Source: Candidatus Kirkpatrickella diaphorinae (lineage in GTDB: Bacteria > Pseudomonadota > Alphaproteobacteria > Acetobacterales > Acetobacteraceae). From it: a stretch of 64,000 nucleotides of DNA. The stretch is from the NCBI RefSeq assembly GCF_025736875.1, contig NZ_CP107052.1, positions 1,042,001 to 1,106,000 on the forward strand, read 5' to 3'. This document shows, one piece after another, positions 747 through 38,551 of the stretch. The notes below the pieces were generated by a model. That model was not told where the DNA came from and did not search any database. It was given only the letters and a program-made list of their open reading frames with translations. A program made the position numbers and the translations under genes. How positions within the stretch are numbered: position 1 is the stretch's first letter; every line of letters starts with the position of its first letter.

Positions 747-2147
747 ATGCTTTATCAATCAACGCGTGGCGCCATCCGAGGTAAGGATTTTTACGATGTT
801 CTCCTTGGCGGGCTGGCAGAGGATGGCGGGCTTTTTGTGCCCGAGACCTGGCCGCAATTCACACAGGATGACTGGCGCAGTCTGCGGGGCCTCTCTTATG
901 CGGCGCTCGCCGCGCGCGTCATTGCCCCTTTCACGCAGAATGTGCTGACCCTCCCTGAACTGGAAGGCTTCTGCAGAAAAGCCTATGCGCGTTTCGATCA
1001 CCCTTCCGTCACGCCTCTTGTAGAAATTGCGCCAGAGCAATATGCCATGGAGTTATTCCACGGCCCGACCTACGCGTTTAAAGATGTCGCCATGCAATTA
1101 CTGGGGCATCTTTTCGAAGACGCCCTGCAAAAGCGCGATCAGCACGTCACCATCGTCGGTGCGACGTCCGGCGATACCGGCTCCGCCGCGATTGAGGCTT
1201 TCAAAGGGCGGGATCGCGTTTCCATCGTCATCCTGCACCCTTATGGCCGGACATCCGATGTTCAGCGCCGCCAGATGACGAGCGTCACCAAAGCCAACGT
1301 GCTGAATATCGCGATTGACGGCACATTTGATGATTGTCAGGATCTCGTCAAAGCCATGTTTGCCGACGCCCCCTTCAGGGAGGAGGTCGCGCTCTCTGCC
1401 GTCAACTCCATCAATTGGGCGCGGATCGCGGCGCAGATCCCTTATTACGTCCGGGCCGCCCTCGCTGTCGGTGCGCCGGATCGGGACGTCTCCTTCGCGG
1501 TGCCGACCGGTAATTTTGGCAATGTCCTCGCCGCATGGGTCGCGCAACGCATGGGCCTGCCCATCAGTCACTTCTGCATTGGCTCCAACAAAAATGACAT
1601 TCTGACCCGATTTATCCTCGATAATGATATGTCGGTGCAACCGGTTGCCCCCAGCCTGTCACCTTCCATGGATATTCAGGTCTCCAGTAATTTTGAGCGC
1701 CTTCTTTTTGAATTTCTGGGCCGGGACAGCGCCCTTTGCCGCACCACCATGCAGGGCTTCCGCCAGACCGGCCGGATGGCCGTACCGACGGAAGCATGGC
1801 ACGCGATCGGAACGCTCTTTAAAGCCCGTCGCCTGGATGATGCGCAGACGCGTGCGGAAATAAAACGTATCTTTGAGAGCAGCCATTATATTGCGGACCC
1901 GCATTCCGCCATCGGTATCGCCGCGGGTGCCGGAAATCAGAAGCCCGGCACCCCGATGATCGCCGCTGCCACGGCACACCCGGCGAAATTCCCGGATGCG
2001 ATTGAAGCAGCGCTCGGGTTCCGCCCGGACATGCCGCCCGCCTTGCAGGACATCATGCAGAAGCCGGAGCGATATGACAGGTTGGCCTGTGACCTCGGGC
2101 TTGTTCAGGACGCTGTCCGCGCCCACATCGCGGCTGACGCAAATTGA
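747..2147 (+). CDS. thrC: Threonine synthase
   Basis: PLP enzyme converting O-phosphohomoserine to threonine, the last step of the threonine pathway in the cytosol. The 466-residue length matches the long proteobacterial class. The cofactor lysine is K112 in HGPTYAFKD, and the phosphate-binding SGDTG loop is at 141-145. The N-terminal MLYQSTRG start is typical of the family; the upstream region is AT-rich but has only a weak Shine-Dalgarno sequence. The M16 peptidase gene begins 31 bases downstream, so the two may share a transcript, although their functions are unrelated. Confidence 0.95.
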   Translation: MLYQSTRGAIRGKDFYDVLLGGLAEDGGLFVPETWPQFTQDDWRSLRGLSYAALAARVIAPFTQNVLTLPELEGFCRKAYARFDHPSVTPLVEIAPEQYAMELFHGPTYAFKDVAMQLLGHLFEDALQKRDQHVTIVGATSGDTGSAAIEAFKGRDRVSIVILHPYGRTSDVQRRQMTSVTKANVLNIAIDGTFDDCQDLVKAMFADAPFREEVALSAVNSINWARIAAQIPYYVRAALAVGAPDRDVSFAVPTGNFGNVLAAWVAQRMGLPISHFCIGSNKNDILTRFILDNDMSVQPVAPSLSPSMDIQVSSNFERLLFEFLGRDSALCRTTMQGFRQTGRMAVPTEAWHAIGTLFKARRLDDAQTRAEIKRIFESSHYIADPHSAIGIAAGAGNQKPGTPMIAAATAHPAKFPDAIEAALGFRPDMPPALQDIMQKPERYDRLACDLGLVQDAVRAHIAADAN

Positions 2148-32166: not shown

Positions 32167-32253
32167 GCCCAGATGGCGGAATTGGTAGACGCGCAGGTTT
32201 CAGGTACCTGTGTCCGCAAGGACGTGGAAGTTCGAGTCTTCTTCTGGGCACCA
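32167..32253 (+). tRNA. tRNA-Leu (anticodon CAG)
   Basis: An 87-base class II tRNA. The acceptor stem GCCCAGA/TCTGGGC is perfect, the discriminator is A and CCA is encoded. The anticodon stem CAGGT/ACCTG encloses loop TTCAGGT, giving anticodon CAG (reads CUG). A long variable arm with GTCC/GGAC and the T loop TTCGAGT are present. A T-rich stretch GTTTTCTTT follows immediately. Confidence 0.96.
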
Positions 32254-36633: not shown

Positions 36634-36999
36634 TTACGCGTCGTATGCATCCGGGCGGCAGGCCGCGATGGCCGTGACTTCAACACGCCATGACGGGTCC
36701 ACCAAACGCGCCTCAACCGTTGCGCGTGCGGGTTTGCAACCCACATCAATCCACGCATCCCATGCCTTGTTCATAGCGTCGATATCCTTGATGTCCGCGA
36801 GAAAAATTTGCACGGACAGCAAATGGCGCTTGTCCGACCCGGTTTCCGCGAGCAGATGGTCGATCTGGGCGAGGATGTCGCGGGTCTGCCCCTCTGCATC
36901 AAGCGAGGTGTCATCCGCGACCTGCCCCGCCAGATAGACGAGACCCCCATGGCGCACTGCGCCACTCAGGCGTGGTTCATCAGCGTAACGACGAATCAC
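36634..36999 (-). CDS. RidA/YjgF family protein
   Basis: A 121-residue Rid-family protein; canonical RidA hydrolyses reactive enamine/imine intermediates from PLP enzymes. The conserved arginine in PARATVEARLV and the VEVTAIA end strand are present, but other residues diverge, so it may be a Rid subfamily without proven deaminase activity. It lies one base after the DUF1150 stop on the same strand, so it is probably in the hsp20 operon, suggesting a stress role (inference). Confidence 0.8.
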   Translation of the reverse strand: MIRRYADEPRLSGAVRHGGLVYLAGQVADDTSLDAEGQTRDILAQIDHLLAETGSDKRHLLSVQIFLADIKDIDAMNKAWDAWIDVGCKPARATVEARLVDPSWRVEVTAIAACRPDAYDA

Positions 37000-37000
37000 C

Positions 37001-37255
37001 TTAATGGAGCCAGGTCGGCGTCAACTCATTATCGATGATCGCTTCAACCGCGCTATCATGGTCCTCGGCCAGGGCCATAGGCGTACCATCAGCCGCATGA
37101 ATCGCAAAAGCGGCCTCACCTTCAAAGACGACTTCCCTGACATAGGCAACCTGTTTCATGCCAAGTTCGAGCAGTTCCAGATTGGAGATGGTCCGAAGGT
37201 CCGATGTCGCTCCGGCGGGGTAAGGCGCGTCCGAAGCGGAGGATGTTCTGGCCAT
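37001..37255 (-). CDS. DUF1150 family protein
   Basis: An 84-residue acidic protein of a family of unknown function restricted mainly to alphaproteobacteria and commonly adjacent to small heat-shock genes. Core pattern: LGMKQVAYVREVVFEGEAAFAIHAADGTPMAL. An AAGGA site nine bases upstream of the ATG decides the start over a TTG two codons earlier, which would be only three bases from that site. A GGGG/CCCC stem lies in the short gap after hsp20. Confidence 0.75.
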   Translation of the reverse strand: MARTSSASDAPYPAGATSDLRTISNLELLELGMKQVAYVREVVFEGEAAFAIHAADGTPMALAEDHDSAVEAIIDNELTPTWLH

Positions 37256-37311
37256 ATTCAAGCGTCCTTTCAGTATGAAGACACTAAGCGGGGGCGAAAC
37301 CCCTTCAGGTT

Positions 37312-37809
37312 TTAATTGTCGCCAGGGGCGGGAGTTCCGCGCGGGCGCCTGGGTCGAGGCAGCTCGATCTCCGTATTCGGCATAGCACGCGCGCTGCGTT
37401 TGCCATCCGAAATTTCTATCTGCTTAACGCGAACTTCAGGCTGAGGGCGATGCAAATCAATGTGAAGCAACCCGTTATCCAGCCACGCATCCCCGACTTC
37501 TATATTGTCGGCAAGCACAAAAGATTTCTGAAATTGTCGCGCCGCAATACCGCGATGAATAAAGGCGCGGCCCTGCGAGTCGTCATTCTGACGGCCTCTG
37601 ATCACAAGTTGGTTATCTTCCTGCGTGATCTGGAGATCCGTCATGGCAAACCCGGCGACGGCCAGTGTCACGCGCAGCGTTTTCTGGTCAAGCTGCTCAA
37701 TATTATAAGGCGGGTAGCCATCTGAAACGGTTTTGGCCGCGCGCTCCAGCATTTGCTCCAGATAATCGAACCCGAGAAATGTCGGGGAAGTGAATAAGCG
37801 TCCTGACAA
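37312..37809 (-). CDS. Small heat-shock protein Hsp20, UUG start
   Basis: ATP-independent holdase of the IbpA type, about 165 residues with an alpha-crystallin domain (about 35-130: YNIEQLDQKTLRVTLAVAGF, QLVIRGRQ, GLLHIDLHRP). I choose TTG because the only good ribosome site, AGGAGG at 37816-37821, is six bases upstream of it. An in-frame ATG five codons earlier precedes that site and lies in the loop of a hairpin that masks it, so it is unlikely to initiate. The leader has the hallmarks of a ROSE thermometer. A C-terminal basic/proline-rich tail follows the crystallin domain. Confidence 0.85.
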   Translation of the reverse strand: MSGRLFTSPTFLGFDYLEQMLERAAKTVSDGYPPYNIEQLDQKTLRVTLAVAGFAMTDLQITQEDNQLVIRGRQNDDSQGRAFIHRGIAARQFQKSFVLADNIEVGDAWLDNGLLHIDLHRPQPEVRVKQIEISDGKRSARAMPNTEIELPRPRRPRGTPAPGDN

Positions 37810-37814
37810 AGCAA

Positions 37815-37834
37815 GCCTCCTCATTGAGCGAGAC
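37815..37834 (-). promoter_or_regulatory. ROSE-type RNA thermometer hairpin over hsp20 SD
   Basis: On the minus-strand RNA, GTCTCGCTC pairs with GAGGAGGC around an AAU loop. The core TCGCT matches the ROSE signature UYGCU opposite AGGA: U-A, C-G, bulged G (37829), C-G, U-A. The whole AGGAGG ribosome site is masked, and would open on heating. The arrangement, with hsp20 directly downstream, fits ROSE elements described in alpha- and gammaproteobacteria. Confidence 0.75.
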
Positions 37835-37835
37835 A

Positions 37836-37867
37836 AACCGTCCTGACCCGAATGGCGTCAGACGGTT
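37836..37867 (-). promoter_or_regulatory. Upstream stable stem of the hsp20 leader
   Basis: AACCGTC-TGAC pairs with GTCAG-GACGGTT over eleven bases with one bulged base and a nine-base loop. It directly precedes the thermometer hairpin; ROSE leaders have one or more permanent upstream stems that keep the 3' hairpin in register. Confidence 0.6.
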
Positions 37868-37880
37868 GAATAAGGGTCAT

Positions 37881-37909
37881 TTTATCACATATGCGACTCA
37901 AACTGACAA
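37881..37909 (-). promoter_or_regulatory. hsp20 promoter candidate
   Basis: Minus-strand TTGTCA (37904-37909) is separated by 17 bases from GATAAA (37881-37886), a housekeeping-sigma-like pair. Transcription from about 37874 would give a leader of about 65 bases holding both stems and the ribosome site. No clear sigma-32 element was identified, consistent with thermometer control. Confidence 0.5.
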
Positions 37910-38005
37910 CTTCAACCACCCCGATCCCGTTTTAACTTTTGCTTCGGCGACATGGCGATGACGAAAATCGTTGGCGCGACGCCGAAATTTCGGTAGGAGC
38001 GCGCT

Positions 38006-38551
38006 ATGGAAGCTCTCTCATTCTTGAACGATCTCGACTCAGTCACGCCGACACCCATCCTGGTTGCACCGCATCCTGTCCTCTCGCGCAAGGCTGCGCG
38101 CGTCCAGCCCTCGGACCTGCCGCAAGTTCGTGCTGCCCTGCCCGGTATGTTTGCGGCCATGTATCGTGCGCCGGGGATTGGCCTCGCCGCGCCGCAAGTG
38201 GGGATCGGGCTGCGCTTCATGATCATCGACATTACCGAGAATGACGCAAGGCGCCCGCGTATCTTCATCAACCCGGAGATCACCTCCTTTTCAGATGAGG
38301 AAGCTGTGACGGAGGAAGGCTGCCTCTCTGTCCCCAACCAATATGCGGAGGTCATCCGGCCGGAGCGCGTCACGGTAAAATATCAGAACCTCGATGGCCA
38401 GGATGAGGAGCTGGAGACAGATGGTCTCCTCGCAATCTGCATCCAGCATGAGATCGACCATCTTGATGGCATTCTTTTCGTGGATCATCTTTCAAAATTG
38501 AAGCGCAATATGCTGCTAAGAAAACTGGCGAAAGAACAGCGCGGGAAGTAG
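38006..38551 (+). CDS. def: Peptide deformylase
   Basis: Metal-dependent hydrolase removing the formyl group from nascent N-terminal methionine. The three class motifs are intact: GIGLAAPQ (57-64), EGCLS (104-108, ligand Cys106) and QHEIDHLDG (His148, Glu149, His152). The 181-residue length is normal. A TAGGAG site precedes the ATG, with a perfect 12-base palindrome CCGAAATTTCGG (37982-37993) next to it. Two bases separate it from fmt; together they form the formyl-methionine cycle unit. Confidence 0.96.
   Translation: MEALSFLNDLDSVTPTPILVAPHPVLSRKAARVQPSDLPQVRAALPGMFAAMYRAPGIGLAAPQVGIGLRFMIIDITENDARRPRIFINPEITSFSDEEAVTEEGCLSVPNQYAEVIRPERVTVKYQNLDGQDEELETDGLLAICIQHEIDHLDGILFVDHLSKLKRNMLLRKLAKEQRGK

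Follow-up and report, generated by a model that had tools for sequence, protein, structure and literature searches.

A conserved two-hairpin leader of the hsp20–DUF1150 mRNA in Candidatus Kirkpatrickella diaphorinae as a probable ROSE-type RNA thermometer

The mRNA leader of an hsp20 gene of Candidatus Kirkpatrickella diaphorinae, a gene followed by a DUF1150 gene and a RidA-family gene in a presumed operon, most probably folds and functions as a two-hairpin RNA thermometer of the ROSE type. We put the probability of this reading at about 0.88. The leader lies on the minus strand of the window, by which we mean the whole stretch of 64,000 nucleotides that was analysed. A ROSE-like leader of the Hsp20 gene had been proposed from the letters of the window, in what we call the sequence-only reading, and the proposal was borne out by the conservation of its motif among orthologous loci, by covariation in the first hairpin and by the match of a covariance model built without the window. 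With these comparisons, the assignment of a ROSE-type thermometer to the Hsp20–DUF1150 operon appears well supported.

The intergenic stretch of 196 bases between hsp20 and the divergent peptide deformylase gene holds the promoter-like elements and both hairpins (Table 1).

Table 1. Features of the hsp20 locus in window coordinates
Feature	Positions	Strand	Basis
-35-like GTTGAA, heat-shock-sigma (RpoH) type	37911..37916	-	Aligned position of CTTGCA/CTTGCG in relatives
-10-like CATATG	37888..37893	-	Sequence; CATAT in most relatives
Hairpin 1, a stable and covarying stem	37836..37867	-	Fold of -16.6 to -16.9 kcal/mol at 37 C; covariation in relatives
Hairpin 2, presumed thermosensor	37815..37834	-	Anti-SD GUCUCGCUC, bulged G37829, paired to GAGGAGGC
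In-frame AUG of hairpin 2, lacks its own SD, improbable as start	37822..37824	-	Sequence; loop not conserved in relatives
Shine-Dalgarno (SD) GAGGAGG	37816..37822	-	Sequence; 6 nt before TTG
hsp20 (165 aa), first codon TTG 37809-37807	37312..37809	-	Pfam HSP20 PF00011, 59.6 bits; start aligned to orthologue ATG/GTG/TTG
DUF1150 gene, second in presumed operon	37001..37255	-	Pfam PF06620, 45.8 bits
RidA-family gene, third in presumed operon	36634..36999	-	Pfam PF01042, 90.9 bits
Peptide deformylase gene, divergent from hsp20	38006-38551	+	

Reading and folding of the minus strand recovered the stable eleven-pair stem, followed by a hairpin masking the SD, that had been described from the letters. 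In hairpin 1, eleven pairs join AACCGUCUGAC with GUCAG-G-ACGGUU, a single G bulging from the 3' arm; beyond them stand an unpaired G (37856) and two further pairs. Hairpin 2 reads GUCUC-G-CUC / GAG-GAGGC, with 8 pairs, a bulged G37829 and the loop AAU. Several features of the ROSE class can be recognised in this arrangement. In the hairpin nearer the 3' end, the U(U/C)GCU motif takes the form UCGCU (37831-37827) and pairs with the SD, as the sequence-only reading had it; the motif recurs in relatives. The bulged G of the pairing between anti-SD and SD, claimed as a hallmark of the class, is G37829, and all 69 of the aligned model matches have it. The leader precedes a gene for a small heat-shock protein, and the stable hairpin 5' of the sensor has been kept by selection, to judge by its covariation in an alignment that was not fitted to any model (A4) and in a model-fitted one (A5).

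Conservation was assessed in 80 named loci, the best 80 of 335 genome-contig stretches encoding relatives of the Hsp20; the leader played no part in their choice. These loci are not independent; after the removal of near-identical leaders, 60 of the 68 alignment rows come from them. A relaxed motif, (C/U)UCGCU facing a purine-rich SD with GGGGG-type SDs allowed, occurs in all 80 named Acetobacteraceae orthologues. The stricter TYGCT(1-12)AGGA within 45 bases of the start is present in 75 of the 80, and TCTCGCT..GAGGAGG in 58. The chance level, taken from random stretches of 75 of the loci with the leader excluded, is 0.005% for the relaxed motif and 0.2% for the stricter one; a related pattern turned up at 3 of the 327 other sites in the loci that combine an SD with a start codon, and at 1 of the 50 such sites of the window. 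UCGCUC is identical in 68 of 68 rows, and across 62 distinct rows no cell of hairpin 2 holds letters that could not pair. The unpaired G of hairpin 1 is present in 67 of 69 aligned rows, the remaining two having a gap at that place. The sensor loop varies among relatives, being for example CUU, CCC, GGUU, or an AUG out of frame.

The evolution of the two stems was followed in several alignments. Three of them (A1, A2 and A3) misplaced the hairpin arms where the loop or the linker differed in length. The alignment A4, made with MAFFT, comprises 20 rows of a single sensor-loop length and leaves out the window, locus L007 and the rows of other sensor-loop lengths. In A4, 97.8% of cells pair, and sliding the partner brings this to at most 56.6%. 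Hairpin 1 has 40 cells with a double change, where shuffles have 12.0 and none of 500 comes up to 40; the number of pairs having a double change, 5, is not above the shuffles (142 of 500 reach it), and these shuffles ignore relatedness. Every double change falls in hairpin 1, and hairpin 2 is almost invariant, with 7 of its 8 pairs never varying. Among the 62 distinct rows of wider relatives, 4 of the 8 pairs of hairpin 2 vary one-sidedly, G-U changes included, and none breaks; no compensatory change of hairpin 2 was found in A4 or A5. Since only one-sided changes are seen, the pairing of hairpin 2 rests on conservation, which is partly imposed by the SD alone. The alignment A5 drew on 81 of the 110 loci that have this leader. 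Of these 81, 69 matched the covariance model R1 at E<=0.01 and 12 did not; being fitted to the model and leaning towards it, A5 is the weaker evidence. The covariance that the sequence-only reading wanted checked was encountered in hairpin 1, whereas its UCGCU/AGGA pairing is conserved and does not covary. That reading had also named an absence of conservation or covariation in relatives as what would speak against a ROSE element; this was tested, and the idea survived.

Searches with R1, whose seed does not contain the window, gave 44.8 bits at the leader (E=1.2e-10). Across the organism's own 2.18 Mb genome, the site has an E-value of 4.2e-9 and the next match one of 0.32. That next match (L116, E=0.322) spans hairpin 1 only; another (L117, 15.0 bits, E=0.435) has an anti-SD-like motif with no gene behind it. 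Both were rejected, and the other three matches have E-values of 8 to 9. A second Hsp20 gene of the genome, at 609.6 kb, was considered as a further ROSE target and dismissed, having no ROSE match up to E=10.

Conservation of this kind could also mark a sequence-specific site for a protein or a small RNA, or an element of mRNA stability, with temperature sensing not being the role of the leader. The identity of single letters (UCGCUC throughout the 68 rows) and the invariant unpaired G of hairpin 1 both exceed what the masking of an SD needs, and hairpin 1 of the Pseudomonas ROSE element was itself proposed to stabilise the mRNA, as described in PMC3669281. The conserved letters are, however, those of ROSE thermometers with experimental support in the accounts of PMC11342760 and PMC3669281, the leader belongs to a small heat-shock gene, and hairpin 2 allows the SD to be paired in 62 of 62 distinct rows. 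We consider such a site or stability element unlikely as the explanation of the leader.

The TTG begins 6 nt after GGAGG, opens the protein as LSGRLFTSP... and aligns with codon 1 (ATG, GTG or TTG) of the relatives, which upheld the earlier choice of UUG as the first codon at correct spacing; translation would probably begin there in vivo, and the UUG may allow a low basal translation, as had been supposed. Its supposed rarity did not hold up: the first codon is ATG in 49, TTG in 11 and GTG in 10 of the 80 named orthologues, and in the remaining 10 loci (Bombella and close kin) the start lies further upstream. An AUG had been noticed at the loop, upstream of the SD. It does sit in the loop, but it overlaps the first bases of the SD. 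This AUG is in frame with Hsp20, a point that the sequence-only reading did not mention; it reads MRRLALSGRLF... and would add MRRLA. An in-frame hairpin AUG is also found in the sister species (L004). Were translation to start at this codon (37824-37822), from which the frame runs without a stop into Hsp20, the SD would be mere coding sequence. We hold this to be very improbable, as the AUG lacks an upstream SD, the loop differs among relatives, and most of them carry ATG or GTG where the window has TTG.

Single-sequence folding was rejected as proof of the thermometer, because shuffled sequences do nearly as well. The fold of the leader has a z of -1.2 against shuffles, 23 of 200 folding as well, and the SD is hidden equally in 42 of 500 (30 C) and 46 of 500 (37 C) shuffles of the upstream part. 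From the window sequence alone the fold is hardly beyond chance; with the relatives it is clearly beyond. A chance pairing of the SD with an upstream pyrimidine stretch, for which these 42 to 46 shuffles in 500 would speak, is practically eliminated by the conservation and covariation in relatives and by the out-of-sample match of R1 at the window site.

Melting in silico likewise proved uninformative. The folding over temperature that had been suggested as a check does form the two hairpins, but ViennaRNA predicts no opening in the physiological range, the SD of the window being still 97% paired at 45 C. The control, the known ROSE element of E. coli ibpA, goes from 0.18 to 0.31 unpaired SD between 25 and 42 C and stays flat above. 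Since even this element rises only modestly, the ViennaRNA melting cannot decide the matter, and the temperature response of the leader is one that we infer from homology. Removal of the bulged G in silico made hairpin 2 more stable by 3.8 kcal/mol at 37 C, its energy falling from -7.1 to -10.9 kcal/mol. This agrees with published ROSE mutants: those that lack the bulged G show weaker heat induction or reduced expression, according to the descriptions in PMC11342760 and PMC3669281.

Upstream of the leader, the promoter-like elements suggest a second level of control. The consensus of RpoH (sigma-32) combines a CTTG-type -35 and a CATAT-type -10 with a spacing of 17-18 nt. A pattern of CTTG.., 14-19 nt and CATAT, CAARAT or CACAT is present in 74 of the 80 named loci versus 0.34% of equally long random stretches. 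The window has GTTGAA-N17-CATATG, so that its -35 departs from the CTTG pattern of the relatives. RpoH is encoded in the genome (362.5 bits, cut-off 323.1), and its use at the predicted hsp20 promoter, with a transcription start near 37881, is plausible. In the mechanism that we favour, hairpin 2 would pair GUCUCGCUC with the SD at growth temperature and keep ribosomes off, the bulged G weakening this pairing. Upon heat shock, RpoH-driven transcription, as the promoter suggests, would raise the mRNA level; hairpin 2 would presumably melt in the cell while the very stable hairpin 1 remains folded, and the freed SD would allow translation to begin at UUG.

The organisation of the locus is largely shared by the family. 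DUF1150 lies downstream of hsp20 in 79 of the 80 named Acetobacteraceae loci, the contig of the 80th ending there, RidA lies downstream in 24 of 80, and the deformylase together with fmt is divergent from hsp20 in 77 of 80. Co-transcription of hsp20 and DUF1150, possibly with ridA, is presumed. Neither neighbour is the unusual partner that it had been taken for, and the UUG start and the DUF1150 gene add no novelty. No literature pairing hsp20 with DUF1150 was found in the PubMed Central open subset. The gap between hsp20 and DUF1150 (37256-37311, minus strand) carries an inverted repeat, GGGGTTTCGCCCC, without a T run, possibly a processing or stability element. Elsewhere in the window, ARAGORN reports a sole tRNA, a tRNA-Leu (anticodon CAG) at 32167-32253 on the plus strand.

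Within the family, R1 matches 105 of 248 genomes at E<=0.01, and the model R2 matches 144 of 248 at E<=0.05 (104 without a match); the filters applied to large genome sets lose weak matches. Ten of the R1 matches in the family were examined, chosen as weak or as not clearly beside a listed Hsp20. Six of the ten precede the same Hsp20 and one (L157) an Hsp20 of another type, and three (L150, L151 and L158) were discarded as thermometers, not standing before an Hsp20. Some weak family matches are chance. L151 (about 1530-1580, minus strand), a second R1 match in its genome (G010), has the anti-SD motif with no long open frame behind it and is likely such a case. At L157 (about 1506-1571), hairpin 1 is well kept and the sensor poorly kept (24.6 bits with R2), perhaps as in a decayed ROSE element.

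In the class Alphaproteobacteria, R2 matches 26 of 385 genomes. Beyond the family there are 23 matches: 20 are followed by an Hsp20, both hairpins being visible in 19 of these, and no Hsp20 follows at the other three (L168, L174 and L183). In two genomes (L167 and L178), the element precedes a more distant type of Hsp20 (45% identical, MRSYDLSPLFRS...), which indicates that it is not confined to a single Hsp20 type. A protein search outside the family matched 182 of 372 genomes at E<=1e-40, and the 26 best-scoring Hsp20 loci were fetched, chosen by the protein alone and several of them near-identical. TYGCT..GGRG lies upstream in 18 of these 26 loci, compared with 1.35% of stretches drawn at random from those loci, and DUF1150 downstream in 18 that are not all the same ones. 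Because motif and DUF1150 recur at these loci, the arrangement of ROSE element, Hsp20 and DUF1150 looks old in the Alphaproteobacteria, with probable losses or divergence.

ROSE thermometers thereby gain comparative support across the Acetobacteraceae, and a gap in public models comes to light, the same Hsp20 arrangement in other alphaproteobacterial families scoring below the Rfam cut-offs. An alignment is now available for an improved ROSE model, and the second conserved unpaired G poses a clear question. In hairpin 1 this G stands in the context U/C-G-CC opposite GGG, as a twin of the bulged G of the sensor. One might go further and see here an ancient alphaproteobacterial ROSE subclass, largely missed by Rfam, in which hairpin 1 with its own invariant unpaired G acts jointly with the sensor hairpin. 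We offer this as a tentative idea, more doubtful than probable; if true, the joint action might consist in a tertiary contact, a shared binding partner or a two-stage melting of both hairpins.

Among the closest known systems is ROSE_3 (RF02523), which consists of two hairpins, GAUGCC..GGGUC with an unpaired G and CUCGCU..AGGAG immediately 5' of the start codon. The unpaired G of hairpin 1 is not new as a sequence feature, because the ROSE_3 consensus shows it at the same position. With the models of Rfam release 15, ROSE_3 was the sole ROSE model reported at the window site, where the Infernal check advised by the sequence-only reading aligned it in the correct place and register, but at 11.8 bits (E=7.9) against a cut-off of 43. 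Among 20 loci from other families of the Alphaproteobacteria, ROSE_3 was likewise reported at 4 (26.0-30.8 bits), and no scanned locus reaches the cut-off: none of RF02523, RF00435 and RF01832 attains its gathering score in the window, and no ROSE model does so in the 20 of the 80 named relatives that were scanned.

ROSE_2 of E. coli ibpA (RF01832) resembles the leader in that it precedes a small heat-shock gene and has CUCGCU facing AGGAG; unlike the leader, it is given 100.4 bits by its own Rfam model and has no R2 match up to E=10. The short ROSE element of Pseudomonas ibpA, as PMC3669281 describes it, is alike in its two hairpins, its U(U/C)GCU motif, a G whose deletion represses, a stable hairpin 1 and sigma-32 transcription, and differs in being gammaproteobacterial and in its AUG start. 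In the same bacterial family, a ROSE element (RF00435) was predicted upstream of the Hsp20 gene GOX_RS07835 of Gluconobacter oxydans 621H, where PMC5756330 tabulates it as an Rfam prediction without a detected transcription start site; this gene is a putative orthologue of the one studied here. The orthologous leader of G. oxydans NBRC 14819 has RF00435 as its best match, with 17.3 bits versus a cut-off of 45. A 2005 survey of alpha- and gammaproteobacteria counted over 40 candidate ROSE elements, as related in PMC3669281 and PMC4166951, and the Acetobacteraceae subgroup may already have been among them. The leader of the window is real and conserved, and it falls in a class already known, including by the prediction before the Hsp20 gene of G. 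oxydans; its least expected feature is that hairpin 1 has an invariant unpaired G.
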